Source: Verrucomicrobiota bacterium JB022 (lineage in GTDB: Bacteria; Verrucomicrobiota; Verrucomicrobiia; Opitutales; Oceanipulchritudinaceae). From it: DNA of 64,000 bases. The stretch spans positions 61,075 to 125,074 of the forward strand of contig JAUTCQ010000019.1 of NCBI GenBank assembly GCA_030673845.1, given 5' to 3'. Of this stretch, positions 19,124-38,930 are shown one piece after another. Numbering within the stretch: position 1 is the stretch's first letter; each line of letters opens with the position of its first letter. Both the position numbers and the translations under genes were made by a program. A model generated the notes under the pieces. That model saw only the letters and a list, made by a program, of their open reading frames with translations. It did not search any database and was not told the origin of the DNA.

Positions 19124-20053
19124 CTACCGCCGAGCGCGGCCACCGGCAACGGATCGTGCTTCGGCGGCCGGCGTGTCTTCGAGCGGCTCCACCGTCACGG
19201 CGACGCGGATCAGTTGCGGGCCGCCGCCAAGAATGGTGCCGCGCAAGAGCGACACGTCTGCATAATCACGCCCCCGGGCGACCACGATATGGTCTTCCTT
19301 CACCGCTACGTTGTTGGTCGGGTCGACATCCACCCAGCCCAGTTGCGGCACATAGATCGACACCCAGGCGTGTGAGGCGTCGGCCCCTACCAGGCGCTCC
19401 TTGCCCGGCGGCGGGATGGTGCGAATGTAGCCGCTGACGTAGGCCGCCGGCAAGCCGCAGGCCCGCAGGCAGGCGATCATGAAGTGCGCGAAGTCCTGAC
19501 ACACGCCCTTGCGCGCTTTGATGAAATCGCTGATCGGCGAGTAGGCGTTGGTGACGCCCGGCATGAACTTGAAGGTGCGGAAGATCTTTTGCGCCAAAGC
19601 CAGCGTAGCCTCCAGCACCGGGCGGTCGTCCGCCAGCGTGCTCTGGGCAAAGTCCCGCGCATCCTTTAACAGCGGGATGCGGGGAGATTCGTAGGTAAAG
19701 TCGGCCGCCGCGAGTGCATCAGCGCTGCTGGGGGCCCGCATCTCCGCCCGGACTTCTCCGCAAGTCGGGGTCAGCTTCGACATCACGGGCGTGCGGCGCT
19801 GGACCGAAACAAGGCTGACGGCCTCCACCTCCAACCGCGGGTGCGGCTCGAACACGCTGAAGAACCGGACCGGATTCTGGAAATAATCCAGACGCCGGAT
19901 GAGGTCGCGCGGCTCCGGGCTCACGCGGAAGTCGAAGCGATGGAGCACCTGCCCCCACCCTTGCAGCGGCTCGACTCGCGCCACCTGGTGCGACGAGGTC
20001 ACAGCGCCGCCGTATTCATAGGTGGTCGTATGGCGTATGCGATAAAGGGCCAT
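19124..20053 (-). CDS. Transglutaminase-like cysteine protease (short, Transglut_N + core)
   Basis: A 309-residue protein with the beta-rich bacterial transglutaminase N-domain (about 1-90) and a transglutaminase core. The Cys-His-Asp triad is visible: Cys185 (RKGVCQDFAHF), His228 (ADASHAWVSIYV) and Asp244 (WVDVDPTNN). There is no signal peptide, so it is probably cytoplasmic. It is the last gene of a conserved set with the permuted ATP-grasp/alpha-E protein and the DUF2126 transglutaminase; comparative work predicts that such sets make or process peptide-like conjugates. The actual substrate is unknown. Confidence 0.92.
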   Translation of the reverse strand: MALYRIRHTTTYEYGGAVTSSHQVARVEPLQGWGQVLHRFDFRVSPEPRDLIRRLDYFQNPVRFFSVFEPHPRLEVEAVSLVSVQRRTPVMSKLTPTCGEVRAEMRAPSSADALAAADFTYESPRIPLLKDARDFAQSTLADDRPVLEATLALAQKIFRTFKFMPGVTNAYSPISDFIKARKGVCQDFAHFMIACLRACGLPAAYVSGYIRTIPPPGKERLVGADASHAWVSIYVPQLGWVDVDPTNNVAVKEDHIVVARGRDYADVSLLRGTILGGGPQLIRVAVTVEPLEDTPAAEARSVAGGRARR

Positions 20054-20056
20054 GCG

Positions 20057-22600: not shown

Positions 22601-22698
22601 AGAGGATATATCGGATCTTCTAGGTCCGAAATTACAGACGGCAAACCCAAACCGCGCCATCGTATCGGACGCGGTTCAGGGCAAGCATGTCGGCGGAT

Positions 22699-25600
22699 CT
22701 AGCGGTTGCGGCGGAGGTCGAGCGTCAACGGGAAGTCGGGGTTGATCTCGTCTTCCGGCAGGCGGTTGAGTTGACCCGGCGTATGGCCGATCGGCTCGAA
22801 GCGTGCGCGGCGGCGCCCTTCGGCCTCATAGCTGTTGATCGGGAAGTGATCGTAGTTACGCCCGCCCGGGTGACCGACGTGGTAGGTGCAGCCAGCCATC
22901 GACCGTTGGGACCAGGTGTCGATGATGTCGAAGACCAGCGGAGTGTCGACCGGCTGAGTGGGGTGCAGGCCAGACGGCGGCTGCCAGGCACGGTAGCGGA
23001 CGCCAGCCACGAATTCGCCCTCGACCTTGGTCGGCACCAGCGGGCATTTGCGACCGTTGCAGGCCACGATGTAGCGGTCGGCATTGAAGTGGGTCACGCG
23101 CACCTGCAGGCGTTCGACCGACGAATCGACGAAGCGCACGGTGCCGCCCGCAAAGCCTTCTTCGCCCATCACGTGCCACGGCTCCAGGGCCTGGCGCAGC
23201 TCGAGCTCGGTTTCGCCAAAGGTGATGTGGCCGTAGCCGGGGAAGCGGAACTCACGGTGCGACTGGAACCACAGTTGCTCGAACGGCAGGCCCGCGCGGC
23301 CCAGATCGGTAAGGACTTCCTTGAAGTCTTCCCACACAAAGTGCGGCAGCATCCAGCGGTCATGCAGCTGCGTGCCCCAGCGCGAGAGACGCTGCGGGTT
23401 GTAGGGGCGCTCCCAGAACCACGCGACCAGCGCGCGCAATAAAAGCTGCTGTGCCAGGCTCATACGGGCATGAGGCGGCATCTCGAAGCTGCGCAGCTCC
23501 AGCAAACCTAGGCGACCGCTCGAACGGTCGGGGTTGTAGAGCTTGTCGATGCAGAATTCGGCTCGGTGGGTATTGCCCGTAACGTCGATCAGCAGGTTGC
23601 GGAAGATACGGTCGACCAGCCACGACGGCGGGGCTTCGCCGATCTTGTCGACTTCGCGGAAAGCAAGCTCCAGCTCGTAGAGCGAGTCGTTGCGGGCCTC
23701 GTCTACGCGCGGGCTCTGGCTCGTCGGCCCCACGAAGAGCCCCGAGAACATGTAGGAAAGCGATGGGTGCTGGTGCCAATAAGCCAGCATGCTGCGGAGC
23801 AGATCCGGGCGGCGCAGGAACGGGCTTTCCAGGGGCGTAGCGGCCCCAAGCACGATGTGATTGCCCCCGCCGGTGCCGCAGTGGCGGCCGTCGAGCATGA
23901 ACTTCTCCGTGCCCAAGCGCGATTCGCGGGCTAGCTGGTACAGCGTTTCGGTGCGCGAGACCAGTTCGCTCCACGACTGCGACGGGTGGATGTTGACTTC
24001 GATTACCCCCGGGTCGGGCGTGATGCTGAAGGATTCGAGGCGCGGGTCGGGCGGCGGGCGCTCGCCTTCGATAAAGACGGGCATTTCCAGCCGGGCTGCT
24101 GTCGCTTCTACCGCCGAGAGCAGCTCCAGATAGGCGTCGGTGCTCGAAACGGGCGGGAAGAAGACAAAGAGCTGGCCGTTGCGGGCTTCGATGCACAGGG
24201 CTGTGCGGACGGCCTCCGAGGCCTCCTGCTGCGGCATGGCAGTTCGCTTGGAGCGCACGCGGCCACGACCACCGGCCTCCGGTTGGGCCAGCGTGTCTTC
24301 CGGTCCGCCGATGCTGGAGCCGGGTTGGCTCCGGGGGCCGAATTCGCCAGTCGATTCGCCGCGTCGCGACGACTGGAGCAGCGCCCGCGCACGCTCTTCG
24401 AACTGCCGCAGAAAGGCTTGGTGCGGCGGCAGCGGAGCAACTGGCGAAGTGGGGTCGGGATGGATGATGTAAGGGTAATTGGCCGCACTGACCCACGGCA
24501 GTCCATCGATCGGCAGGCGCAGGCCGATGGGCGAATCGCCGGGCAGCAGGTAGATGTTTTGCTGGCGCGAGCACCAAGGGCCGGTGCGCCAACGCAGGCC
24601 GCTGGCCCGAGCCTGCCACATCTGTTGCAGCGGCAGGATATAGCCGCGCGGGTTGTCGAGCCCGGATTCGAAGACGCGGCCCAGGCGAGCGCGCTCTTCG
24701 GGGTCGGATAATTTCGACTCCAGCGGGTCGACGTTGACCGGCAGCTTCTGCTCTTTCCAGAGGTAATACCAGATGTCTTCGTAGGCCGCTTCTACATACT
24801 CGGCCGTGATGCCCATCGTGGCGCACAGCTCACGGGAAAAACGCTCCGCATCGGCGGCCTTGAAGCCGTAGTCCTGGTCGATGGACGCGAGCCAGCGCGG
24901 GTCGCCCCAGATGGATTCGCCGTCGCGGCGCCAGTAGCAGGTGAGTGCCCAGCGCGGCAGGGATTCGCCCGGATACCATTTACCTTGGCCGTAGTGGGTA
25001 AAGCCGCCTTTGCCGTAGGTCGCCCGCATCTTGCGCAGCAGCACCTCGCTCAGGCGACGCTTGCCCGGCCCTACTGCGGCCACGTTCCATTCCGGGCCGT
25101 CTGGATCGTCGATTGAGACGAAGGTGGGCTCGCCTCCCATCGTCAGGCGGACGTCGCCCGCCTGCAGCCGCCGGTCGACCTCGTTGCCCAAAGCGTTGAG
25201 GCGTTGCCAGGCGGCATCGTCGTAAGGGTATGTGACCCGCGGGGCTTCGCGCACCCGCTTGACCTCCATCGCAAAGTCAAACTCGGTCTTGTTGGGCTCC
25301 ACGCCGCCGGTGATGGGGGCTGCGCCGATGGGATGTGGTGAGCAGGCCAGCGGGATGTGGCCTTCGCCGGCGAGCAAGCCGCTGGTCGGGTCGAGCCCCA
25401 CCCAACCGGCGCCGGGCAGGAACACTTCCGCCCAGGCGTGCAAGTCGGTAAAATCGTTCTCCGTTCCAGACGGGCCGTCGATACTCTTGATATCGGGTGT
25501 GAGCTGGATCAGGTAACCGCTGGCGAAGCGGGCGGCCAAGCCGAGGCGGCGCAGGACGTGCACGAGCAGCCATGCACTGTCGCGACAGGAGCCGGTACGT

Positions 25601-26127
25601 TTTTGCAGCGTTTCCTCCGGTGTCTGGACCCCCGGCTCCATCCGGACGATGTAACCGATGTCTTGCTGGATCCGCTGGTTTAAATCGACCAGAAAGTGGA
25701 CCGTCTGTTTCTCAATGCCCACGAACTGTTTAAAATATTCCTCGAACAGCGGGCCCTCCGATTCGCTGGTATCCATGAAGGGCTCGAGATCGCGCAAGGC
25801 GTTGCTCTTGTAGGCGAAGGGAAACTGCTCGGCGTAGTCTTCCAGGAAGAAATCGAAGGGGTTGACCACCGTCATCTCGGCCACCACGTCGACCTCCACC
25901 TTGAACTCGGTGATTTTCTCGGGGTAGACGATCCGGGCCAGGTAGTTGCCGTGCGGGTCTTGCTGCCAGTTGATGAAGTAGCCCTCCGGCGACGCCTTCA
26001 GCGAGTAGCTGACGATCGGCGTGCGGCAGTGAGGTGCCGGGCGCAGGCGGATGACCTGCGGGTAAAGCGTCACCGGGCGTTCATACTTGTAATGGGTGCA
26101 GTGGTACAGACTGGCGTGAATGGCCAT
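22699..26127 (-). CDS. Large transglutaminase-like protein with DUF2126 C-terminal region
   Basis: A 1142-residue protein. The N-terminal ~290 residues are a transglutaminase with its own N-domain (MAIHASLYHCTHYKYERPVT) and triad Cys181 (TGSCRDSAWLL), His230 (DLHAWAEVFLPG) and Asp246 (GLDPTSG). The remaining ~850 residues match the DUF2126 type (MGGEPTFVSIDDPDGPEWN, DGRHCGTGGGNHIVLG, ending near DEINPDFPLTLDLRR). This architecture is normally encoded beside permuted ATP-grasp/alpha-E genes, as here. It sits first in the three-gene core, 98 bp upstream of the ATP-grasp gene. Confidence 0.93.
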   Translation of the reverse strand: MAIHASLYHCTHYKYERPVTLYPQVIRLRPAPHCRTPIVSYSLKASPEGYFINWQQDPHGNYLARIVYPEKITEFKVEVDVVAEMTVVNPFDFFLEDYAEQFPFAYKSNALRDLEPFMDTSESEGPLFEEYFKQFVGIEKQTVHFLVDLNQRIQQDIGYIVRMEPGVQTPEETLQKRTGSCRDSAWLLVHVLRRLGLAARFASGYLIQLTPDIKSIDGPSGTENDFTDLHAWAEVFLPGAGWVGLDPTSGLLAGEGHIPLACSPHPIGAAPITGGVEPNKTEFDFAMEVKRVREAPRVTYPYDDAAWQRLNALGNEVDRRLQAGDVRLTMGGEPTFVSIDDPDGPEWNVAAVGPGKRRLSEVLLRKMRATYGKGGFTHYGQGKWYPGESLPRWALTCYWRRDGESIWGDPRWLASIDQDYGFKAADAERFSRELCATMGITAEYVEAAYEDIWYYLWKEQKLPVNVDPLESKLSDPEERARLGRVFESGLDNPRGYILPLQQMWQARASGLRWRTGPWCSRQQNIYLLPGDSPIGLRLPIDGLPWVSAANYPYIIHPDPTSPVAPLPPHQAFLRQFEERARALLQSSRRGESTGEFGPRSQPGSSIGGPEDTLAQPEAGGRGRVRSKRTAMPQQEASEAVRTALCIEARNGQLFVFFPPVSSTDAYLELLSAVEATAARLEMPVFIEGERPPPDPRLESFSITPDPGVIEVNIHPSQSWSELVSRTETLYQLARESRLGTEKFMLDGRHCGTGGGNHIVLGAATPLESPFLRRPDLLRSMLAYWHQHPSLSYMFSGLFVGPTSQSPRVDEARNDSLYELELAFREVDKIGEAPPSWLVDRIFRNLLIDVTGNTHRAEFCIDKLYNPDRSSGRLGLLELRSFEMPPHARMSLAQQLLLRALVAWFWERPYNPQRLSRWGTQLHDRWMLPHFVWEDFKEVLTDLGRAGLPFEQLWFQSHREFRFPGYGHITFGETELELRQALEPWHVMGEEGFAGGTVRFVDSSVERLQVRVTHFNADRYIVACNGRKCPLVPTKVEGEFVAGVRYRAWQPPSGLHPTQPVDTPLVFDIIDTWSQRSMAGCTYHVGHPGGRNYDHFPINSYEAEGRRRARFEPIGHTPGQLNRLPEDEINPDFPLTLDLRRNR

Positions 26128-26299
26128 GGATACTTCGGGAAATAACGGGTTACCCCTAGTTGGGGAGAATCGAAACGGCTGCAGCAGGAACCAGTCCCAA
26201 AATACGGGGATCTCTTCCTTTGTTGCACGAAGTCATATAACCCGTTGGGGCCTGAGGCAAGAACAGCTTATACCACCGCTTCGCTTTCCTGCATCGGTC

Positions 26300-27361
26300 T
26301 CAGGATACCACGCCTCGCTCCCGCACCAGGCGGTGGATATAGGCCAGCTTTTCCGTCACGGCGGAGGACAGGACGAAGGGATAGGCGTCGGGCTGGCCAA
26401 TGCTGCGGTTCAGGCTATTCAGTGCCAGCGTGATGGGCAACCAGCGATCCACGATGGTGGGGAAGTCGTCTGCCGTATACGGGTCGAAGCTGGCCGCGCT
26501 GGCATCGGCTTCCAGTTGGCCGCGCAAGTCTGGGCGCAGGTTGATCCCAAAGTGCAAGGCGGTCTCCAGCAGATCCACGATGTGGAAGTAGTGGGCCCAG
26601 GTCTCGGCCCAGTCTTCCCAGGGGTGGGAAGCGGCGTAGGCGGTTACAAACTGCTGCTCCCAGCCCGGCTGCGGACCTTGGGCATAGTGGGCCTCAAGAG
26701 CCTTCTGGTAATCTTCCCGCTCATCGCCAAAGACACGGCGAAATTCCTCGACCCCCTGCCCTGCGCCGAAAAACGCTTCCCAATAAAAGTGGGCCGACTC
26801 ATGCCGAAAGTGCCCCAAGAGCGTGCGATACGGCTCGTCCAGCTCCGAGCGTACCTTTTCGCGGTGGGCGGGGTCGGCCTCCTCGATGTTCAGAGTGATC
26901 AGCCCGTTGGCGTGCCCCGTCATCACCGGGTCTTTTTGCACTTCGGGCGAGAGCAGGTCGAACTGCGGCTGGGGAAGCGGGTGCCCGTTTTCGCCGATCA
27001 GCCCAAAGCGCAGCAGCGAGTAGATCAGCCGGCGCTTGGCCCGCTCGATGTCTACCCACAGCTCGATCCGCCGCTCGTCGTCGAGGTTGGGGATTGTGCG
27101 GCTGAGGCTGCATGAGAGGCAGAATTCGCTTTCGCTCTCCGCCGGCACCATCCAGTTGCAGCTCAAATGGTGGTCGCGATTGGCACAGGGGCGAAATTCG
27201 CGGCGGTCGCCCATTCGTCGCCACGAGGTTTCGCTGGCCACCTCAAAGTTTACCAGCTTGGCGATCTCCGGCACAAAACCCAGGTGCGCACCACAACGCA
27301 CGCACGACGTATTCTCGAAATACACGGCATTGCCGCACTGCTGACAAAAAAAGAGCTTCAT
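26300..27361 (-). CDS. Zinc-ribbon putative metallopeptidase
   Basis: A 353-residue protein. It begins with a zinc ribbon (Cys6, Cys9, Cys20, Cys23: FFCQQCG, TSCVRCG). A second Cys/His cluster follows (RPCANRDHHLSCNW, EFCLSCSL), then a helical domain with HExxH at 187-191 (GHFRHESAHFYWEAFF) and a downstream WEDWAETWAHYFHI block. This matches the putative zinc-binding metallopeptidase family often found in transglutaminase/ATP-grasp clusters. I used the ATG at 27359-27361; the open frame extends four codons to a TTG. The 172 bp to the next gene (26128-26299) hold only a weak short repeat. Confidence 0.85.
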   Translation of the reverse strand: MKLFFCQQCGNAVYFENTSCVRCGAHLGFVPEIAKLVNFEVASETSWRRMGDRREFRPCANRDHHLSCNWMVPAESESEFCLSCSLSRTIPNLDDERRIELWVDIERAKRRLIYSLLRFGLIGENGHPLPQPQFDLLSPEVQKDPVMTGHANGLITLNIEEADPAHREKVRSELDEPYRTLLGHFRHESAHFYWEAFFGAGQGVEEFRRVFGDEREDYQKALEAHYAQGPQPGWEQQFVTAYAASHPWEDWAETWAHYFHIVDLLETALHFGINLRPDLRGQLEADASAASFDPYTADDFPTIVDRWLPITLALNSLNRSIGQPDAYPFVLSSAVTEKLAYIHRLVRERGVVS

Positions 27362-27531
27362 AAAGAGAGACAACGTTGCACCAGCACCGCCGCAGCGGCA
27401 CTCGGCTACCTATCGCCCAAATCCCCCTGCCGCACAATGGCAGAGCGATGATTTGGCCCTGCAGGTGACGTGTACCCTGCCCTGCTCCGCGCTTGACTAA
27501 CGAATTTACCCTAGTCACTGCTTTGAAGGTC

Positions 27532-28230
27532 ATGAAGCTGCTGTTTATCCTGCCCATCATTATCCTGGCCTGTCTCACGAGTTGCAACCCGCATCAAAAT
27601 CCCAATGCGGTGCAGCGGGGAAAAGCTACCCAACTGGGCGCAACCCACGGCTATGTGCTTGCGGTGCTGACGGTGGAGGAAAAGCGACCGGAAGGAATGC
27701 TGGGGATAACCGCGAAGACATTTTCCGCCTATTCCCTGCATTACCGCCCAGTGGGAGGTAAGCACGAAGGCACGCTGCGCTTCAGCCCTGGGGGCATGTA
27801 CAAGAGCAAAAACGACTTTCCCGATGGGCTGGGCCACGTTTATCTGCTGGCGCTACCGGCCGGAGAATATGAGCTGTATGAATATGGCTTCTACGAGCAG
27901 TATTACAACACCAGCATAACGCACCGTTCGCTGGAGTTTTCGATGCCGTTCGAAGTCAAGCCCGGAGAAGTCACTTATATCGGCCGCTTCAATGCCAAGC
28001 ATACCTACGCCGAGAATATGCTGGGTACTGTCGTCCTCGACAGTGGGTATTTCATCGTGGAAGACGCGTTTGAAGAGGATCTCGCGCATGCTCAGGAAAT
28101 CTACCCCGAGGTGAATCTGGATTCGGCCCGCAAGGCGAAGGGCTATCAGGAAAAAATCGGCAAACCGATCCTCTCACCTGAAGATCTGGAACGCACGACT
28201 TTGCAGGCCCCGAATCAGGCGACCCCATGA
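27532..28230 (+). CDS. Predicted lipoprotein of unknown function
   Basis: A 232-residue protein with a lipoprotein signal: MKLLFILPIIILACLTSC, with the lipobox LTSC at Cys18. The mature part is rich in beta-type sequence (LPAGEYELYEYGFYEQYYN, EVKPGEVTYIGRFNA). The last style resembles periplasmic domains that carry a small beta-sandwich, but I recognise no family. I preferred the ATG at 27532 over an upstream TTG because it starts the lipoprotein signal exactly. It precedes the papain-like peptidase by 114 bp on the same strand and may belong with it. Confidence 0.72.
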   Translation: MKLLFILPIIILACLTSCNPHQNPNAVQRGKATQLGATHGYVLAVLTVEEKRPEGMLGITAKTFSAYSLHYRPVGGKHEGTLRFSPGGMYKSKNDFPDGLGHVYLLALPAGEYELYEYGFYEQYYNTSITHRSLEFSMPFEVKPGEVTYIGRFNAKHTYAENMLGTVVLDSGYFIVEDAFEEDLAHAQEIYPEVNLDSARKAKGYQEKIGKPILSPEDLERTTLQAPNQATP

Positions 28231-28344
28231 TCGTTAGCCTCGCGCAAGCTTAAGAAATTCGTGAAGTTAGGCTCGGGGGTTACTTTGCGCTGTTCGATGC
28301 GGTGAATTGTGCTTATCTCGTTCGTAGGCAATCTCACTCGTATC

Positions 28345-29823
28345 ATGTCTCCCTGTAAGTCTCTGTTTTTGTTGGCCGCCGTCGGGCTAGGCCTTGGTTT
28401 AACCTTGTCGGCGCAAGACGAGCCCCAAAAGGGCACGGGCCTGATCTTCGACGTTCAGGCCTACCGGGCGGTGCCTTACAAAGCGCCGGTGACGGCAGAT
28501 ACTTACGCCAACCTGCCGGTTGCGGCGAACCTGGAGAAGTATTGTCCGACCCCCGGAGACCAAGGCCGCTACTCCACCTGCACGGCGTTTGCGGTAGGCT
28601 ACCACTTGCGCACGATCCTTTACGGGATCGAGCAACAACAGACGTCGCGCGCCCAGCTAGATCGCCATATATTCTCGCCGACGTTCGTCTACGAGAAGAT
28701 CAAGGACGAGAGCGATCTGGACTGCATGCAGGGCTCTAGCCCGGTGGCGGCACTGGAGCTGCTGCGCTCGGTGGGCATCCCAACCCTGGCTACCGTGCCC
28801 TACCTCTGCGGTTCGGCCATTGGGACAGACGCGATGCTGGAAGCGACCGCCTACCCGATTCTCGATTATCAAATCCTCTACGGCACCGACCTGGCCGATA
28901 CCGATCCGATCAAAACCCTGTCGGTCAAGAAGTCGCTCTCGGAGGGCAGCCCGGTCGTAATCGGCTTCAAGGTGCACCAGAGCTTTTACCAGTCTGGCGC
29001 GGTGTGGAAAGAGCAGGAGAGCGACCGAGGCCCCACAGGACAACACGGGCTCCACGCCATGGTGGTGGTGGGCTACGACGATGCCCGCGCAGGCGGCTCG
29101 ATGCGGGTCATGAATAGCTGGGGCACGCGCTGGGGTGACAAAGGCTTCGTCTGGATCCCTTACGAAGATTTCAACCGCAACTGCATCATGGCGTTGCAGG
29201 CCTACGGCAAGCGCCCTGCCCGCCCTACCCCGAGGCCGGGGCCCGATGGCAAGACGCCCGAGCTGCCTCCGCTGCTGCAGGGCAAGGTTGCGTTTGAAGA
29301 GCGCGACGGCACGCCCATGGCGGCCATCAAGGTGGTGCCGCCGGAAGATCGCAGCAACCAGACGCGCTACGTCGGCTACCGCATGGCGCGCTCCTATGCT
29401 TCGGGCACGCGCTTCCGTTTTTACATCACCACCAATACCGACTGCTACCTCTATGCCTTCGCAACCGATCTGACGGGCGAGATTACGACCATCCTGCCGT
29501 TTCAGGACAACATGTCGCCGCATATCGGGCCGAATAGCACGATTGCCTTCCCCTCCGAGCGCAAAGTGGTGCGGATGGACCGGCAGCCCGGCACCGACTA
29601 TCTGCTAATGCTCTACTCGGAAGAGCCGCTCGACGTCGAAGCGCTCAAGGCGGCGATGGAAGCCAATTCGGGCACCCTCTCGCTCAAGGTGGCCCAGGCA
29701 CTCGGTTCACGCATCGTGCCCGAGCAATATATCCAGTTCGACCCCGACCAGATCGGCTTCACCGTTACCCAGAAGACCCGCGGCAGCGTCGTCCCGCTGA
29801 TGGTCGAAATTCAACACGATTAG
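28345..29823 (+). CDS. Secreted papain-like (C1A) cysteine peptidase with C-terminal DUF4384-like domain
   Basis: A 492-residue exported protein (signal LFLLAAVGLGLGLTLSA). Residues about 55-285 form a papain fold with Gln73 and Cys79 (GDQGRYSTCTAFAV), His237 (QHGLHAMVVVGYDD) and Asn257 (MNSWGTRWGDKGF), so the catalytic set is complete. A proline-rich linker (about 289-310) leads to a DUF4384-like region (345-430: FRFYITTNTDCYLYAFATDL, GTDYLLMLYS). DUF4384 is more often attached to caspase-like peptidases; here two caspases follow directly (6 bp to the next gene). The ATG at 28345 was chosen because it starts the signal peptide; a GTG at 28309 is in frame. Confidence 0.88.
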   Translation: MSPCKSLFLLAAVGLGLGLTLSAQDEPQKGTGLIFDVQAYRAVPYKAPVTADTYANLPVAANLEKYCPTPGDQGRYSTCTAFAVGYHLRTILYGIEQQQTSRAQLDRHIFSPTFVYEKIKDESDLDCMQGSSPVAALELLRSVGIPTLATVPYLCGSAIGTDAMLEATAYPILDYQILYGTDLADTDPIKTLSVKKSLSEGSPVVIGFKVHQSFYQSGAVWKEQESDRGPTGQHGLHAMVVVGYDDARAGGSMRVMNSWGTRWGDKGFVWIPYEDFNRNCIMALQAYGKRPARPTPRPGPDGKTPELPPLLQGKVAFEERDGTPMAAIKVVPPEDRSNQTRYVGYRMARSYASGTRFRFYITTNTDCYLYAFATDLTGEITTILPFQDNMSPHIGPNSTIAFPSERKVVRMDRQPGTDYLLMLYSEEPLDVEALKAAMEANSGTLSLKVAQALGSRIVPEQYIQFDPDQIGFTVTQKTRGSVVPLMVEIQHD

Positions 29824-29829
29824 TCTCTC

Positions 29830-32800
29830 ATGCTTTCGCTTTCCCGTCTCGCCTCCCTCTCGCTGATCGGTCTGTCAGTTTCCGGCGTCGATGCCAGCTG
29901 GCTGGCCTCCTCGCTCGACCTCCTGCGTGCCGACCCAGACCAACGATACGTGGTCGCCTCCAACGACACCGGCTTTACCTTGCACGACAGCCAGACCTTG
30001 CGGCCGAGCTATGTCATCTCCAGCCCCGATGCTTCCGCCCAACTGTTTTCGGCCGATGGCAAACGGCTGTATTTTACCGAAAGCGACAAGGGTCTGTTTG
30101 CGCTGGAGCTGGAAACAGGGGAAGTGAAGCATATTGCCACGATCCCGACCATCTCTGGCCTCTTCCTGAGCGATGATGGTCAACGAATCGTGACGATGAG
30201 CAGTGAGCCGGGCCAATGGGAAACCGAGCGCCTGGTCTTGCATGCCGTCGACGCCAGCGGCAAGGGCGACCCCCAGCAACTGGCCGTGCTAGAGCCCGCC
30301 AAAATGCGCTGGATCGAGCACGTCCAGACGCTGCCCGCTCGCCAGCCCGACCGCATGGTGCTGGTGCTACGCGACGCAGATGAGCCGACGAACCAGTGGG
30401 ACTCCCGGAGTTGGGGCGTGCAGCGCTTTGTCGAGCTGGACCTGCAGACGGGAAATACCAAGGTGCTTTCGACGCTGGCGGAGGGGGATACCCAGCGCTT
30501 GCTCGATAGTTCGTTGCGCTGGACCAACGACCGCCGCGAAGTGCTGGAGTGGAGCGCCAACCCCGACTACGCCTACACGTTGATCGACCCCTACAGCGGC
30601 AAGATCGTGCGCGAGCTGAAGGTGCCAGGCGTGGAGTTCCACCTGCACGAGCCAGGGCAGGTGATCGCCTACCGCGAAGCGCAGGAAAACGGTGCCACTC
30701 AGTTATACCGCGACTATCTGGAAAGCGGCACGCTGAAAACCTTGCGCAACGTGGCGATCCCCGATCGTGATGCCTGGCCCGAGCGTGAGCGGGCCGAGCT
30801 GCCGGAGTCGTATTTTTATGCTACCACCATCCGCGGCGACGTGGTCGGCGAATACAGCCGATACGGCGAGCCTTACCGGCTGCTACGGCTCGACCCGCAA
30901 GGCAAGACCGTTGCTAGCTACGACGCTGGCGGGAGTGCGCCCTATGGCTTTGAGAACTTCGCCTTTCACCCTACCCGCCCAGAGTTTTTTGCGTTCGACG
31001 AGGAAGAAGGTGTGCACCTGTTTCGCACGACCTCATCCGGCCTGAAACATCAAGCCCGCGGCCCGGCGGCATGGGAAGCGCAGTTCACGGCAGATGGCGA
31101 GCAAGTCCTCTTTCACGGGCTGTTCGACCCGCCTTTGGAGCAGTTGTCAGCAAGCGATTTCCCCAGCTCGCAGTCGCTGGTCTATGAATCGCCTCCTCAA
31201 ATCACCACCGATCCGATTTATGTCAGCCCGCCGGTCATTTCGCCCTCGGGCCAGTGGATCATCGCCCTCAACAACCGCGACACCACCCTGCATCGCTTGG
31301 GTGAAGCGCCGATCATTCACAGCCTGGGAGGCGTCGTCGATGGAACGATGCCGGAATATCTGTTTGCGGCCGATGAACAAGGGCTTGCGCGCCTCATCTG
31401 GTCGGTGACTTGGGACGATTACGACGTGGAGCAGCGCACGGCGACGCTGGAGCTGCTGCCTTTCCCCACGACGGAAGATTATCCGCAGCCACTGCTCTCG
31501 GTCGCGCTGCCCCACCCTCATTACCAACTGATCGACTACCCCGCCGCAGAGGTGCGCTTGATCGACTTGCAGGCGGGTGAGCTGGCAACCGTCTCGACCG
31601 AAAGTGGTGAGATCGTTACGACCCCCATCGCGGGGCTGAAGCCTGCCGAAGGTGAATCAGGCCCGTTCTTTTTCGATTCCGCAAAATTGAAGGTCTATCT
31701 GGCGAGGGGGAGCACCTTGGTGGAAATCGATCTTTCAACTGCAACCCCTACAGCTCGGCAGCAGGAGCTGGAGAGCAAGATCTCCCAACTGCACCGTTAC
31801 GGAGATGGACGTCACATCGTGGCGGTGCTGGACACCGGGGCGCTGGTGTTCGTCGAGCCCGAAAGCACCGGGCTGCGTGTGGCCCTGCAGATGCAGTTCT
31901 ACGGTCCGTCGGGCTCCTATCTGGCGGAGAGCCCGGCTGGCTACTTCGATGCCTCGGCCGCCATCCGCGATACGGGTTACCTCTTGCGCGGCACTCGCCC
32001 GACCCCGCTCAAGAGCCTGTTTGAGCGTGCCTACCAACCCGATTTGCTCGTCACGGCCTTGGGCGCCGACGCGGTGGGCGAAGACGAGCCTTTGCCCGCC
32101 TACATCCAGCCGCCGCGGATTACGGACTTCAATTCGCGCTGGGTTTCGGCCTTGCAACACCGGCTGTTTGTCAACGTCGAGGCCCGACAGCATCCGCTGA
32201 CCGAGCTGCGCGTCTACCAAAACGACAAGCTGGTGCAGAGCTTGAGCCGGTCTGAGTTCGCCGCCAGCAAAGGCCGCATCGAAGTAGAGCTGCTGTTGGA
32301 GGAAAACCGCTTTTACGTGACGGCGATCGACGAAGCGGGCGTCAGTGCGACCTCCGAAACGCTGGTGCTCAACCCGCCCCAGGCCCTGCTGGAGCAAAAA
32401 CTGGCCGAGCGTCGCGCTCCGCACCTCCACCTGCTCGTGGTGGGCGTCAATGAATACCGCAACCGCGAATACAACCTCAACTTTGCCGTGGCCGACGCCC
32501 AAGGTATCCGCACGCTGTTGGAGTCGGCCAACCGCGACCTGTTCGAACAGATCGAGACGCACCAACTCAGCGACGCCGAGGCGACACACGACGGTATCCT
32601 GGCCGCGTTCGAGCGCGTCAAGGCGGCGGCGCAACCGCAAGACGTATTCATTTTCTACTTTGCGGGCCACGGCGTGATGTCTCAGGCCAACCAGCAGTTT
32701 TACCTGATCCCGCACGACGTCACGCGCATCTACGGCGAAAGCCAAAGCCTGACGGAGAACGGTATCGCCGCCCATCAGCTCCAGCAGCTTTCGGCCTCCA

Positions 32801-33180
32801 TCCGGGCGCAAAAGCAGCTCTTCATCCTCGACGCCTGTAACTCGGGCGGTGCCCTGCAGGCCTTTGCCCAGCGTGGCGCTTCGCAGGAGAAAGCACTGGC
32901 CCAGCTTGCGAGGGCGACGGGCACGCACTGGATCGCAGCCTCCTCGGCCTCGCAGTTTGCGACCGAATTTGCCGACCTCGGGCACGGCGCGTTCACGCAC
33001 ACCCTGATCCAGGGACTGGGCGGCGAAGCCGATGCGGGGGATCGCCGCGTCACGGTCAACGAGCTGAAGGCCTACCTCGAAGCCGAGCTGCCGGAAGTCA
33101 CTCAGCGCTACAAGGGAGCGCCGCAATACCCGGCCAGCTACGGCTATGGTCAGGATTTCCCCGTTGCCCTTCTCCCCTAA
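29830..33180 (+). CDS. Secreted beta-propeller caspase-like peptidase 1
   Basis: An 1116-residue exported protein. The signal (LASLSLIGLSVSGVDA) is followed by about 800 residues of WD40-like propeller repeats (SADGKRLYFTE, ISPSGQWIIALN). An Ig-like stretch follows (LRVYQNDKLVQSLSRS), then a C14 caspase domain from about residue 863 (HLLVVGVNEYRNREYNLNFA). The catalytic dyad is intact: His947 (YFAGHGVMS) and Cys1003 (LDACNSGGAL). The C-terminus (GAPQYPASYGYGQDFPV) is shared with the next gene. Because it carries a signal peptide it probably works in the periplasm or outside the cell, unlike cytoplasmic defence caspases. Confidence 0.9.
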   Translation: MLSLSRLASLSLIGLSVSGVDASWLASSLDLLRADPDQRYVVASNDTGFTLHDSQTLRPSYVISSPDASAQLFSADGKRLYFTESDKGLFALELETGEVKHIATIPTISGLFLSDDGQRIVTMSSEPGQWETERLVLHAVDASGKGDPQQLAVLEPAKMRWIEHVQTLPARQPDRMVLVLRDADEPTNQWDSRSWGVQRFVELDLQTGNTKVLSTLAEGDTQRLLDSSLRWTNDRREVLEWSANPDYAYTLIDPYSGKIVRELKVPGVEFHLHEPGQVIAYREAQENGATQLYRDYLESGTLKTLRNVAIPDRDAWPERERAELPESYFYATTIRGDVVGEYSRYGEPYRLLRLDPQGKTVASYDAGGSAPYGFENFAFHPTRPEFFAFDEEEGVHLFRTTSSGLKHQARGPAAWEAQFTADGEQVLFHGLFDPPLEQLSASDFPSSQSLVYESPPQITTDPIYVSPPVISPSGQWIIALNNRDTTLHRLGEAPIIHSLGGVVDGTMPEYLFAADEQGLARLIWSVTWDDYDVEQRTATLELLPFPTTEDYPQPLLSVALPHPHYQLIDYPAAEVRLIDLQAGELATVSTESGEIVTTPIAGLKPAEGESGPFFFDSAKLKVYLARGSTLVEIDLSTATPTARQQELESKISQLHRYGDGRHIVAVLDTGALVFVEPESTGLRVALQMQFYGPSGSYLAESPAGYFDASAAIRDTGYLLRGTRPTPLKSLFERAYQPDLLVTALGADAVGEDEPLPAYIQPPRITDFNSRWVSALQHRLFVNVEARQHPLTELRVYQNDKLVQSLSRSEFAASKGRIEVELLLEENRFYVTAIDEAGVSATSETLVLNPPQALLEQKLAERRAPHLHLLVVGVNEYRNREYNLNFAVADAQGIRTLLESANRDLFEQIETHQLSDAEATHDGILAAFERVKAAAQPQDVFIFYFAGHGVMSQANQQFYLIPHDVTRIYGESQSLTENGIAAHQLQQLSASIRAQKQLFILDACNSGGALQAFAQRGASQEKALAQLARATGTHWIAASSASQFATEFADLGHGAFTHTLIQGLGGEADAGDRRVTVNELKAYLEAELPEVTQRYKGAPQYPASYGYGQDFPVALLP

Positions 33181-33192
33181 TCGCCGCGCCTC

Positions 33193-36100
33193 ATGCGAAA
33201 CCTCGACCGACTCATGCGTCTTGTGCTGGGGGCCAGCCTCTGCACGGCATCCCTGAACGCGCAGTATGAGCAGTTTATCCAGGATCCCTCTCTGGATCCT
33301 TCGCTGACGCCCGCAACAGAGGCCGAACCACCTCCGCCTCCAGTCTTGCTGACGCCATCGCTGCATCGTCACGCGATTCGCGCACTGGATCAATCGGCAG
33401 ACGGTCGCTATCTGCTGAGCACCGACGAGCGCACGCTGAAGATCTGGGATGTCGCCCACCGCGCACCTATCGCCACTTACGAGCAGCCGACCGCCGGCAC
33501 GCACCCCCGCTATGCGCAGGACATCGTCGCCGCCTGGTTTACGGACAAGCCGCGGCAGGTATTGGTCTGCACCACGCAAAACGTCTTCGTCTTCGACGAC
33601 CTCGATTTTTCCAAGCCCAGCGCGCAGTTTCGCCGGTTCCGGCCCTTTGGCTACCGCTTTGTTGCGGCCACTCAGACATTGTACTGGACGAGTTATGACT
33701 CCGACCGCCGGAGCCTCACCTTGGGCCGGCTGGATATCGCCACCGGCCAAGAAACGCATACCCAGGTGATCACCTTCGACCAGCCCTTTGCGAGCAGCGA
33801 AGGCAAGAGCCTTTCGGTCGATGCCGCAGGAAAAATCGGAACCGTTACTTTTCCGCAATCACAGGATCCCGCGATCGTCTTTGAGCTGGCGACGGGCAAG
33901 GTGATCCAGAATCTACCCGGTTCGACTGCCGTGCAAGGCCTGCTGCCGGATGGGCGGTTGCTGACCCGTGCGGTGGAGGGCGAGCAGAATCGTTTCGGCA
34001 CGCTCGATCTGGCGACGTTGACGCCGGCGCCGCTTTTTGCCGTGCCCTACCGCTACGGCGTGCAGACGCTGCTCCCAACGCATCCAGACGACCCTCTCGT
34101 CCTGACGGCTGGAGATACATTCTGGACTTACGATCTGAAAGGCGGGCAACTGACCCAAGCGGTGCACCTGCCGGACCGATGGACAAATGCGGCCCTGCAA
34201 TACCGTCAACCCAACGGTGGGGCACGTCCGCTGCTGGCGCAGTCGAGCGTCATCCCAGGCACCCGTGACGTCAGCGCCACGTATCTGGAGCTGTTCGACC
34301 CGCAGGCGGAGGTATTCCGTGGGCAGTGGACCGAGCCGACCTATACTCCGGAGGCTTTTTACACCCGCCCGGACGAGTTCGAACTGGTGGTGCGCCGGGG
34401 CAATGCCTTTCGTCGCGTCAGCTTCACCGAGGCGGGCATCACGAGCGAGCCCTTAGCTGAGCCCGACACGCGGATCGGACCGGCCCAGGCTTATTACGAT
34501 CCGGCTGCGCGCGAGTGGAAGCTGGTCGGCGCGTGGAGGGCGACCTTGGCCACCCCGACCACAGAGGCCGGCAAGCTGGAGGTCGATACGCTCGCTCAGG
34601 CGATGGCCCCGAAGACGCGCTTTTTCTCGCTCTCACGTGACGGACGTCGCATCGCATTACACCACGAGACAGAGGTCACGGTGTTTGATCTCGAAAACGG
34701 GCAGCGGCTCGCCCGGGCTCCTTTGGCGGTGACGACCAACTTCAGCCTGAAGCGGGAGCAGATCGTCGCGCTTTCTCCCGATGGGGAGATTTTCGCTTAC
34801 GCTTACCAGACCATCCGCGAAGGCAGAGCCGTTGACGTGCTGGAGTGCCGGACGGTCGCGACCGGAGAGCTGCGCTGGAGCAAGACGGAGACGAGCGAGT
34901 GGGCCTATTTCGACCATTTGCGCTTCAGCCCCGATGGTTCCCAGCTCTACGTGAACGGAAACAACGCCGTGGGAGCCGCAAACTGTCTGTTTACCTCCAC
35001 CGGCGAGCCAGCACGGCGCATGGATGTGGGCCAGTTCCTCGCCTATAATGCGGCGGGCACTTTGGCGGTGGGGCGCGGTGGCCATTACGGCAATGCCAGT
35101 GCTTTTCAGCTCAAAGTAACCAGCCTGGCGGACGGCAAGCAAGTCAGCACCGTTACGCTCCCGGCGACGCCCCGCAAGATAAGCTTCATTGGCTCCGATC
35201 GCTTTCTGATCGCGGATTCGGCGACCGAGGAATTGCTACGGCTGATCGACTTAAAGGAGCAGGCCGTGATCGCAGAGATCCAGCTTTTCGAGTCGCCGCA
35301 AAAATGGCTGGTGAGGCACCCGGCCACCGGGCTTTTCAGCTCCGAAAACTCGCTGCACGATCAGTTGATGTTTCGGCAGGGGGAGCAGATTACGCCGCTT
35401 GCCGCCTACTTCGAGGAGTTTTACCGCCCACGCCTGCTCGGCTCGCTGGTCAAGGGGCTGACGCCGCGCCCCACGATCCCCGTCTCCGACTTGCGTTACG
35501 CGCCCAAGTTGACCTTGAGCGTGGCCGGGCCTGCGACCCGGGGCCTCAGCGTGGAAGACGAATACGAGACCTTTGAACTGCCGACGCCAGAGGTGACGCT
35601 CCAGTTGGAGGCAACTTGCGAAGGCTCGCCTATTGCTGACTTACGCCTCTACCACAACGGCAAGCTGGTGACGGGTGGCACGCGCGGCCTGTTTGTCGAA
35701 GACGATGAGGATGCGCCTATAAGCGAGACCTTCACCAAATCGGCTACGCATACTTTTGCGCTCACTCCGGGTAAAAACCGTTTCCGCGCAGTGGCGATCA
35801 ACGAGCAAGGCACCGAGTCCATGCCCGACGAGCTGATCGTCTACTCCGAAGCTGCCGCACCGGAGTCGCAGGGAGGATTGTCGCTACACCTGATGGTGGT
35901 CGGCATCAACGCCTACCGCAACCCGGCTTACAACCTCAACTACGCCCGCGCCGACGCCGAGGCCGTCGCGGCGGCCTTGCGCAGAAGCGAAGCGGTCTTC
36001 AGCCAGACGAATGTCTATACGCTCTACGATGCCGAGGCTACGCGCGAAAACATCCTCACGACGCTGGAGACGATCCGCAGCGAGGCCAACCCGGGCGACG

Positions 36101-36639
36101 TTTTCATCTTCTACTACGCTGGCCACGGCGTGATGTCGGACGAGACCGAGCCGAAGTTTTACCTCGCGCCCTACGAGATCACACAGCTCTACGGCGAAGA
36201 CCGCTTGCTGCGACAGCTCGGGGTGTCGAGCGATAGCCTGCTGGAGTTTTCGCGCGATATTGCCGCGCAGAAGCAGCTTTTCATCCTCGACGCCTGCCAG
36301 TCTGCCGGTGCGCTCAAAACGGTGGCCCAGCGGGGGGCGGTCGAGGAAAAGGCCATTGCCCAACTGGCGCGCAGCACGGGCACGCACTGGCTCACCGCAA
36401 CCGGCAGCGAACAGTTTGCCGCCGAGTTTGATGAGCTGGGGCACGGTGCCTTTACCTATACCCTGCTCCAGGCGCTCGACGGTGCCGCCGACTCGGGCGA
36501 CCGACTGGTGTCGGTCAACGAATTGAAGGCGTATCTGGAAGCGCAGGTGCCGGAGGTTACGGCCGAGAAAAAAGGCGAGCCGCAATACCCCGTCACCTAC
36601 GGCTACGGGCAAGACTTCCCGCTGGCCGTGGTGCGTTAA
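33193..36639 (+). CDS. Secreted beta-propeller caspase-like peptidase 2
   Basis: An 1148-residue paralogue of the preceding gene, 12 bp downstream. It has a signal peptide (RLVLGASLCTASLNAQ), an acidic proline-rich linker (about 28-52), WD40-like repeats (ALDQSADGRYLLSTDERTLK, LRFSPDGSQLYVNG), an Ig-like stretch and the caspase domain from about residue 898 (HLMVVGINAYRNPAYNLNYA). The dyad is His978 (YYAGHGVMS) and Cys1035 (LDACQSAGAL). The two caspase domains are very alike while the propellers have diverged, pointing to an old tandem duplication with different recognition parts. Confidence 0.9.
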   Translation: MRNLDRLMRLVLGASLCTASLNAQYEQFIQDPSLDPSLTPATEAEPPPPPVLLTPSLHRHAIRALDQSADGRYLLSTDERTLKIWDVAHRAPIATYEQPTAGTHPRYAQDIVAAWFTDKPRQVLVCTTQNVFVFDDLDFSKPSAQFRRFRPFGYRFVAATQTLYWTSYDSDRRSLTLGRLDIATGQETHTQVITFDQPFASSEGKSLSVDAAGKIGTVTFPQSQDPAIVFELATGKVIQNLPGSTAVQGLLPDGRLLTRAVEGEQNRFGTLDLATLTPAPLFAVPYRYGVQTLLPTHPDDPLVLTAGDTFWTYDLKGGQLTQAVHLPDRWTNAALQYRQPNGGARPLLAQSSVIPGTRDVSATYLELFDPQAEVFRGQWTEPTYTPEAFYTRPDEFELVVRRGNAFRRVSFTEAGITSEPLAEPDTRIGPAQAYYDPAAREWKLVGAWRATLATPTTEAGKLEVDTLAQAMAPKTRFFSLSRDGRRIALHHETEVTVFDLENGQRLARAPLAVTTNFSLKREQIVALSPDGEIFAYAYQTIREGRAVDVLECRTVATGELRWSKTETSEWAYFDHLRFSPDGSQLYVNGNNAVGAANCLFTSTGEPARRMDVGQFLAYNAAGTLAVGRGGHYGNASAFQLKVTSLADGKQVSTVTLPATPRKISFIGSDRFLIADSATEELLRLIDLKEQAVIAEIQLFESPQKWLVRHPATGLFSSENSLHDQLMFRQGEQITPLAAYFEEFYRPRLLGSLVKGLTPRPTIPVSDLRYAPKLTLSVAGPATRGLSVEDEYETFELPTPEVTLQLEATCEGSPIADLRLYHNGKLVTGGTRGLFVEDDEDAPISETFTKSATHTFALTPGKNRFRAVAINEQGTESMPDELIVYSEAAAPESQGGLSLHLMVVGINAYRNPAYNLNYARADAEAVAAALRRSEAVFSQTNVYTLYDAEATRENILTTLETIRSEANPGDVFIFYYAGHGVMSDETEPKFYLAPYEITQLYGEDRLLRQLGVSSDSLLEFSRDIAAQKQLFILDACQSAGALKTVAQRGAVEEKAIAQLARSTGTHWLTATGSEQFAAEFDELGHGAFTYTLLQALDGAADSGDRLVSVNELKAYLEAQVPEVTAEKKGEPQYPVTYGYGQDFPLAVVR

Positions 36640-37277: not shown

Positions 37278-38930
37278 ATGGATCTCACCTATTTCAAGTA
37301 TCTCCGTAAGGAGTCGCCTGCTCTGACGACTTTGAGCCTGTCGATGGCGACGGCGGCTGGCATCGCCCAGGCGGCGGTGATGATGATCGTGAATGAGGCG
37401 GCTGTCGCCCTGTTCTTCGAGTGGTCGACGACGAAGATGCTGTTTCTCTTCCTCTTCGCGCTCGTCGTATTTGTGGCGGCCAAACGCTTTTTTATGTATC
37501 GTGTGGCGGCCAGCGCGGAGAAGCTTTCGCAGCAGATCCGCCTCCGCATCATCGACAAGCTGCACCACACCGAGCTGGAGAACTTCGAGCAGGTGGGCCG
37601 TTCCCGCATCTACAACGCCTGCGGCACCGACACGGCCAAGCTTTCCGAAGCCTCCGTGGCCGTTACCTCCGCCTGCGCCTCGCTGCTCATGGTCGGCTGC
37701 ACCATCGTCTACCTGGCCTTCATTTCGTTGCCGAGCGTCATCATCATCACAGCGGTCAGCGTGTTCGGCTACTACGTGTTCGGCTCGATCCGCGGTGCCG
37801 CCCAGAGCGAACTGGTGCGTGCGCGCCAGACGGAGAATATCTTTGTCGATCAGCTCAGCCAGCTGCTTTCCGGCTTCAAGGAAGTCAAGCTGGACCGGCG
37901 GAAGGCGGACGGCCTCATCCAGGACGACATGCGGCAAACCACCGAGCAAGTGCTGGAGGCCAATAACCGCGCACAACGGGCATACGCCAACGTGATCATT
38001 GCCGCGCAGGCGTTCTTCCTCGTGCTGATCGCCTCCGTCGTATTTATCGTGCCGAAGGTTTCCGGCACGTCGCCCATTGTGCTGATGCAGATTATTTCTG
38101 CCACGCTGTTTCTGACCGGGCCGATCGCGGAAATTATCGCCTCGATGGTACCCCTCGCGCACGCCAACGTCGCCATCCGAGAGCTGCAGCACATAGAGGA
38201 GCTGCTCGACAGCAAGATGGACGAGAGCATGGCCCAGCAAAAGCCCAAGCCCGCCTCCAAAACGTGGAACCAGATCGAGCTGCGGGACGTCTATTACCAC
38301 TACGGCAATCAGGCCGCCGAGCAGTCGAGCTTTTCCGTCGGCCCGCTTAACCTGACGCTGAAGCAGGGCGAAATCCTCTTCCTCGTGGGCGGCAACGGCT
38401 CGGGAAAGACGACCCTCCTGAGCGTGCTGGCAGGTTTGCGCCACCCCAACGCTGGCCACATCTACCTCGACAGCAAGCTGGTCCGCCGCGAAGACCTGCC
38501 GCACTACCGCTCGCACTTTGCTGCCGTACTGTCCGATTTCCACCTCTTCCGTCGCCTATATGGGCTCGACGAAACGGCCCGGCAGCATGTGCGCGACGTG
38601 TTGGCGGAGCTGGAGATTGCCGACAAAACGACGGTCGTGGGCGATTCCTTTACCACCATCGACCTCTCGACCGGCCAGCGCAAACGCGTGGCACTGGCGG
38701 CTGCCGTGGCGGAAGATCGCCCGATTTACCTCTTCGACGAATGGGCGGCCGACCAAGACCCGCCTTTCCGCGACCGCTTTTACAAAAAGATCCTGCCCGA
38801 GCTGCGTGCCTCCGGCAAAACCATCGTGGTGATCTCGCATGACGACCGTTACTTCGGAGTGGCCGACCGCATCATCACGATGGAATACGGTAACATCGCG
38901 AGCGAGCAGGTTCCGGAGCGGCAGGGCTAG
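37278..38930 (+). CDS. Cyclic-peptide-type ABC exporter (SyrD/PvdE-like, fused membrane and ATPase domains)
   Basis: A 550-residue half-type exporter. Six spans occupy about residues 15-310. The ATPase domain follows with Walker A VGGNGSGKTTLL (about 370-382), an unusual signature DLSTGQRKRVALAAA, and Walker B PIYLFDEWAADQDPPFR with the switch HDDRYF. The STGQRKR and FDEWAADQDP blocks identify the cyclic peptide/siderophore exporter family (SyrD, PvdE). Such exporters move nonribosomal peptides or their precursors to the periplasm. It lies 12 kb from the NRPS and on the other strand, so a link is possible but not shown. Confidence 0.9.
   Translation: MDLTYFKYLRKESPALTTLSLSMATAAGIAQAAVMMIVNEAAVALFFEWSTTKMLFLFLFALVVFVAAKRFFMYRVAASAEKLSQQIRLRIIDKLHHTELENFEQVGRSRIYNACGTDTAKLSEASVAVTSACASLLMVGCTIVYLAFISLPSVIIITAVSVFGYYVFGSIRGAAQSELVRARQTENIFVDQLSQLLSGFKEVKLDRRKADGLIQDDMRQTTEQVLEANNRAQRAYANVIIAAQAFFLVLIASVVFIVPKVSGTSPIVLMQIISATLFLTGPIAEIIASMVPLAHANVAIRELQHIEELLDSKMDESMAQQKPKPASKTWNQIELRDVYYHYGNQAAEQSSFSVGPLNLTLKQGEILFLVGGNGSGKTTLLSVLAGLRHPNAGHIYLDSKLVRREDLPHYRSHFAAVLSDFHLFRRLYGLDETARQHVRDVLAELEIADKTTVVGDSFTTIDLSTGQRKRVALAAAVAEDRPIYLFDEWAADQDPPFRDRFYKKILPELRASGKTIVVISHDDRYFGVADRIITMEYGNIASEQVPERQG

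Follow-up and report, generated by a model that had tools for sequence, protein, structure and literature searches.

What might two giant caspase-like proteins with predicted export signals do beside a papain-fold peptidase, and do the three act together? This question is raised by the genome of Verrucomicrobiota bacterium JB022, in which our window, a stretch of 64,000 nucleotides of contig JAUTCQ010000019.1, encodes a papain-fold (C1A) peptidase with a DUF4384 domain followed by two proteins with C-terminal caspase domains, here called caspases A and B. The gene pair recurs in other genomes of Verrucomicrobiota and Bacteroidota, and what is new is a short motif, [TS]R[NG]LxV[ED][DE] (the tag), that is common to caspases and, in Bacteroidota, to the non-homologous C1A partner. 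It may be, with a probability that we place not far short of even, that the C1A enzyme and two tandem-propeller caspases constitute a self-contained, exported protease relay that works through cleavage of this private tag by a caspase specific for Arg.

A recurrent pair of cysteine peptidases

The initial annotation of this DNA had coupled a third cysteine peptidase, of another fold, to the two caspases, and had named co-occurrence in other genomes as its test. This coupling is borne out. Among 372 genomes sampled from the order of the host, eight have both a C1A match (E <= 1e-25) and a long caspase B match (E <= 1e-10), none has one partner alone, and the two genes adjoin in all eight; three more genomes have caspase matches that lie in shorter frames and extend over the protease domain only. 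A scan of named genomes yielded no loci with a single-sequence query and 42 with an alignment query, in Opitutales and Bacteroidota, a sample that is biased because exact words from the DUF4384 part were required. After removal of duplicates (L031, L034, L035 and L036; L and G numbers are our labels for loci and genomes), 46 non-redundant loci from Verrucomicrobiota and Bacteroidota were available, the window included, and 43 of them show a giant caspase or, at L056 and L063, a caspase start before the contig end. Two of the three caspase-negative loci (L038 and L058) end just past the C1A gene, and the third (L064) continues for about 3.3 kb without a caspase. A giant caspase lies directly behind the C1A gene on the same strand in 36 of the 46 loci, with a median gap of 10 bases. 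Because the pair recurs in this way in other genomes, its occurrence is more than chance.

The number of caspases varies from one at many loci to two to four at others, with at least five over about 38 kb in G1011, and in G134 the gene order is caspase A, caspase B, C1A. A survey of 268 genomes from a Bacteroidota order (E <= 1e-40) found both partners in 11, a caspase only in three and C1A only in five; scoring, here and in the order of the host, was limited to two candidates per genome. In one of the caspase-only genomes (G1034) the caspase runs off the end of its contig at the expected position of C1A, and in three of the C1A-only genomes the match covers the papain part only. In 296 genomes of the order of Dokdonia, searched for C1A only, there were seven matches: the query's own, three of full length (33–34% identity) and three restricted to the papain part.

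The C1A protein of the window exceeds the curated Pfam cut-offs for both C1A and DUF4384 (the latter with 49.3 bits, cut-off 27). Its catalytic residues, Q73 (28561), C79 (28579), H237 (29053) and N257 (29113), are invariant in 44 of 44 aligned C1A proteins, namely the window's own and 43 of 46 from the loci, with two short proteins and one duplicate omitted. DUF4384 is thereby linked to caspases once more, since a table in PMC8283722 lists it as fused to 23 cyanobacterial orthocaspases. Pfam names no toxin domain on the C1A proteins or the caspases, which are conserved, separate enzymes rather than domains built into toxin proteins. The host genome (4.35 Mb, 25 contigs, 97% complete) has no C14 matches other than caspases A and B, and its single DUF4384 match is the C1A protein of the window.

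A tag shared by unrelated proteases

In the caspases the tag occupies the linker between the propellers and the protease, and in Bacteroidota C1A proteins it stands just before DUF4384, some of these proteins having a second copy in a hairpin loop near the C-terminus. One regular expression finds it in 50 of 64 caspase calls (two copies in 33, one in 17, none in 14), in 33 of 46 C1A calls and in 3 of 443 other calls. The expression misses variants with Ile or Ala; with Ile allowed, all 34 aligned Bacteroidota C1A proteins carry the tag. Two of the three other calls are members of one family located between C1A and caspase (L040, 6174-7262; L043, 3031-4086), of which the L040 protein scores 27.9 bits for DUF4384 (cut-off 27), and the third appears by eye to be a chance match in a receiver domain. 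Across 13 whole genomes, a DNA pattern for the tag matched 32 times and the reversed pattern 20 times. The tag is encoded by 25 of the 32 matches, all of which fall inside C1A or caspase genes of the system when coordinates are compared by hand, and the other seven do not decode to it; one genome has no match to this pattern, which is strict and undercounts variants. Moreover, the best 120 of 1553 caspase relatives, drawn from 7997 candidates scored, all bear the tag.

Several origins of this sharing were considered and rejected. The tag is not a generic feature of caspases, as it occurs in none of 29 outside caspases, including two (L122 and L128) from genomes that have the system, although these form a weak control, being for the most part shorter than the giants. 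Two distant giants serve better: L179 has no match to a loose expression, and L178 has one match that is not a full tag. These giants lack the usual dyad patterns, and no C1A gene is found on the short stretches fetched (10,986 bases for L178 and 6,000 for L179). Homology of the tag regions in caspases and C1A proteins was likewise discarded, as only 14 columns align and these are the tag itself. Recently copied DNA is an unlikely source, because codon pairs at residues shared by the copies within a locus agree in 264 of 556 cases, with 224 expected from codon usage, a comparison whose p-values ignore relatedness.

A private tag held in common supports mutual recognition or cleavage of the partners and, whether it is cut or serves for docking, argues that they act together. 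We regard it as improbable that the two proteases are simply an exported protein-degrading pair used in feeding or clean-up, with the tag as a structural or calcium-binding loop that has no part in signaling. The acidic run in the tag would suit such a loop, and exported peptidases of papain or caspase fold that serve digestion are common. However, a structural role gives no reason for a loop to appear in non-homologous proteins and yet be absent elsewhere in the genome, and giant propellers are unusual for digestive enzymes.

Active sites and architecture of the giant caspases

Both caspases had been described as retaining the His/Cys dyad and as having similar protease domains joined to divergent remainders, and both statements stand. 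The dyad residues H978 and C1035 (caspase B numbering) are invariant in 55 of 55 aligned giant caspases, comprising the window's two and 53 of the 65 from the loci (10 shorter than 1020 residues and two duplicates of the window's own were omitted). Between caspases A and B, the protease part has 144 identical residues among 253 aligned, and the part before it 180 among 710. Equally invariant in the 55 sequences are two S1-type Asp residues, D921 and D1033. The first aligns with one Asp of TbMCA2 that we take, by our own matching of the numbering, to be Asp95; the second, two residues before the catalytic Cys, would presumably correspond to Asp211 of the same enzyme if the Cys numbering that we assume is right. 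Asp95 and Asp211 of TbMCA2 are among the S1-pocket residues named in the available part of PMC4357240. Given this invariance and the match to the S1 pocket, the giant caspases are predicted to cleave after Arg or Lys.

A structure model of caspase B (predicted local distance difference test, pLDDT, 85.6; predicted template modeling score, pTM, 0.85) has two propellers in tandem. Propellers of about 800 residues had been proposed; the tandem arrangement agrees with this, and the length comes down to about 640 residues (55-692). They are followed by a beta-sandwich linker at about 770-885; Pfam Glucodextran_B matches the equivalent region of a distant relative. In a structure look-up the propellers match WD40 proteins, with Apaf-1 among the tied best matches; because propellers fill the matches listed, the lack of a caspase or Ig entry is no argument against those folds. 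Both tags of caspase B are in low-confidence loops (pLDDT below 50 at residues 830-838, mean 53 in the block 781-790). The counterpart loop in a model of the window's C1A protein, residues 331-340 with a mean pLDDT of 64, carries no tag. A relay that operates by cutting would be expected to show such a feature, with a conserved Arg placed in a flexible loop that joins sensor to protease and present again in the partner. A further possible cut site is R1047-G1048 behind the catalytic Cys of caspase B, where Arg is found in 47 of 55 rows and Gly also in 47 of 55; it sits just past another low-confidence loop of the model (1037-1044).

In a tree of the protease domains, seven tag-free caspases, caspase A among them, are set apart from the rest by a branch with support of 100/99. 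All seven are from Opitutales and keep the His/Cys dyad, and the other 48 rows bear the tag, a distribution for which one loss of the tag is enough. This contrast suggests a division of labor, in which caspases of kind A would be cutters and those of kind B would be cut.

The principal competitor to the relay is that the tag is a docking motif, an interpretation that we consider rather unlikely. The propellers or another partner would bind the TR[NG]LxVEDD loops and thereby assemble the caspases with the papain partner, and the caspase's own copies would occupy the propeller and hold the enzyme inactive. WD40 proteins, which the propellers resemble, are known for binding short peptides; the Leu, Val and acidic residues of the tag are as conserved as its Arg; and the tags lie in loops within beta domains. 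Nevertheless, some degenerate sites (L040, L043, L059 and L061) retain R[NG] and lose the rest, which leans toward cutting rather than docking, and, according to passages of PMC5756287, C14 enzymes of this type, the non-caspase members of the family, cleave behind Arg or Lys.

Predicted export

The initial annotation had envisaged a cleavage cascade outside the cytoplasm. A home-made rule, which requires an N-terminal hydrophobic stretch plus a plausible cleavage site or lipobox, passes 52 of 58 caspases (calls under 700 residues or cut at the start were excluded) and 42 of 46 C1A proteins, and several of the misses are overlong or cut frames. Most members of both families are therefore predicted to be exported. 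Predicted export, conserved catalytic sites and the private motif all favor the proposed cascade, except for the lipoprotein that had been included in it. The only match of that lipoprotein in a search of 5.8 billion proteins is itself, and it is absent from the other 45 loci, so we no longer count it as a partner. A possible precedent for export exists in parts of PMC3501461, where N-terminal helices, possibly signal peptides, are reported for many bacterial metacaspases, together with 23 metacaspase operons that include other proteolysis domains and a possible extracellular role; the passages available from that source contain no description of a C1A-DUF4384/propeller-caspase system.

It is highly improbable, by contrast, that these genes form a cytoplasmic suicide or anti-phage caspase system. 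The general caspase model of PADLOC does match both giants (69.9 and 62.7 bits), and the resemblance of the propellers to Apaf-1 points the same way. The signal-like N-termini speak against it, however, as does the lack of any other PADLOC single-protein model matching the four proteins of the locus, which makes membership in a known defense system doubtful. Membership in the EACC1 system was rejected, its NCBIfam caspase model (NF047832) giving 100 and 93.7 bits against a cut-off of 140, and no further gene recurs at most of the 46 loci.

Gene organization of the window and of related loci

The four open reading frames that the initial annotation had grouped (Table 1) are separated by 114, 6 and 12 bases. 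Their common strand and their signal-like N-termini, the latter by the rough rule, are as had been described; the membership of the first frame is not upheld. The spacing suggests that the genes are co-transcribed, and a promoter scan gave chance-level results.

Table 1. Coordinates of features in the window
Feature	Position	Strand	Remarks
C1A (papain-fold) peptidase with DUF4384	28345..29823	+	signal-like N-terminal stretch; alternative GTG start 28309
Giant caspase A, tag-free	29830..33180	+	His947 (32668-32670), Cys1003 (32836-32838); Pfam C14 64.5 bits, cut-off 21.4
Giant caspase B, two tags	33193..36639	+	His978 (36124-36126), Cys1035 (36295-36297); Pfam C14 64.2 bits, cut-off 21.4
Tandem beta-propellers of caspase B, residues ~55-372 and 383-692	33355..35268	+	secondary structure of model; aligned ranges of WD40 chains
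First tag of caspase B, TRGLSVEDE, residues 782-790	35536..35562	+	low-confidence loop
Second tag of caspase B, TRGLFVEDD, residues 830-838	35680..35706	+	low-confidence loop
Lipoprotein-like frame, judged outside the system	27532..28230	+	sole relative is itself; none at other loci
Adjoining divergent cluster	19124..27373	-	transglutaminase, CP-ATP-grasp/Alpha-E, transglutaminase-DUF2126, Peptidase_Mx zinc-ribbon protein
ABC transporter downstream of the caspases	37278..38930	+	membrane and ATPase parts fused

The Peptidase_Mx neighbor is present in three of five genomes and was not found in one congener. Two Peptidase_Mx stretches that were fetched matched only parts of that gene's own cluster, and no insertion site could be read from them.

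Other genes lie between C1A and caspase at some loci. These include a Roc-COR-TIR protein with leucine-rich repeats in a Saprospiraceae genome (L042, 11576-14521), a TPR histidine kinase with a LuxR-type regulator (L053, 11437-13988), and a permuted papain-like C92 protein (L068, 11586-12242). Families of the kinase and regulator kinds are found on 9 and 7 of the 46 loci. Upstream of C1A, six Verrucomicrobiota loci (L017, L025, L027, L028, L032 and L033) carry a small family of 149-167 residues, whose L033 member has no Pfam match.

A possible protease relay

In the sequence of events that we infer, the location in the cell, the cleavage and the activation that follows are all putative. The Arg of TR[NG]LxVEDD would mark the point behind which an Arg-specific caspase cleaves. 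Within the window, the role of cutter would fall to caspase A, which lacks the tag. Its target would be caspase B, which carries two tags in the region that joins propellers to protease, and the cut would free or rearrange the protease of caspase B. For Bacteroidota the proposal is that a caspase cleaves itself or a sister caspase, as well as the loop beside DUF4384 of the papain partner. The propellers may act as the sensor, and the papain enzyme could be a second effector or an activator. A precedent for such activation is the orthocaspase MaOC1, for which, in passages of PMC5756287, cutting free the p20 domain is a prerequisite for activity. A more elaborate version, possible but doubtful in our estimation, is that this is an exported counterpart of the caspase cascade, with propeller sensors on Arg-specific caspases, a papain executioner and a private eight-residue cleavage code, and with the Opitutales having split the task, so that A is an initiator free of the tag and B an executioner that bears it.

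Several observations weigh against a relay of this kind. None of the 10 Verrucomicrobiota C1A proteins carries the tag, the window's own included, so that in this phylum the papain link is provided solely by the gene pairing. The Leu, Val and Asp of the tag are about as fixed as the Arg, which is more than a plain Arg-specific cut would need, and the C1A tag lies inside a single beta domain, flanked by its strands, so that the fragments might stay together after a cut. Of 436 other gene calls, 195 satisfy the rough signal rule too. In G1140 the C1A gene and the two caspase genes lie on three different contigs, all three proteins bearing the tag. The three full-length C1A matches from the order of Dokdonia are of this sort: at L173, the C1A-like gene stands beside a giant that is weakly caspase-like (29 bits, with no C14 named by Pfam), both being tag-free, and at L172 and L174 the 19 kb fetched around the C1A-like gene contain no match to a caspase. 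One congener has no C14 match and a weak papain match only. From these last results, the distribution of the system is patchy, and distant relatives of C1A can occur without it.

To our knowledge, the natural substrates of exported bacterial caspases are scarcely known. A motif that is conserved across two phyla in two unrelated proteases provides a substrate and a cut site that are directly testable. If the proposed relay is real, it would be a compact one, consisting of sensor, caspase and papain enzyme, and would open an approach to the origin of caspase-type switching outside animals.

Comparison with known systems

A literature search, mainly of open-access text, returned no description of the C1A-DUF4384/propeller-caspase pair or of the tag. 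The secreted protease cascade of staphylococci reportedly also comprises exported proteases with mutual activation, a papain-fold enzyme among them, but it is said to have no caspase fold, propellers or shared tag. Closer in fold are the orthocaspases and bacterial metacaspases of family C14, such as MaOC1, which likewise have a C14 domain with a His/Cys dyad. Many orthocaspases carry WD40 repeats and some DUF4384 (passages of PMC8283722), and a basic P1 residue and p20 release are described for them in part of PMC5756287. The proteins studied here differ in having a signal-like N-terminus, two propellers followed by a C-terminal caspase domain, a papain-fold partner gene and a shared tag. The EACC1-caspase system, as far as passages of PMC7159879 describe it, likewise consists of two genes including a caspase and is partly membrane-linked; there, however, the caspase domain is N-terminal and the partner is a one-helix membrane protein, whereas here the caspase domain is C-terminal and the partner is a papain peptidase. 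Finally, the MALT1 paracaspase is an Arg-specific caspase fold located beside an inhibiting Ig domain (part of PMC4357240, in which we read the inhibition as that of MALT1), in contrast to the tandem propellers, export signal and tag loops inside a beta-sandwich that distinguish the giant caspases.

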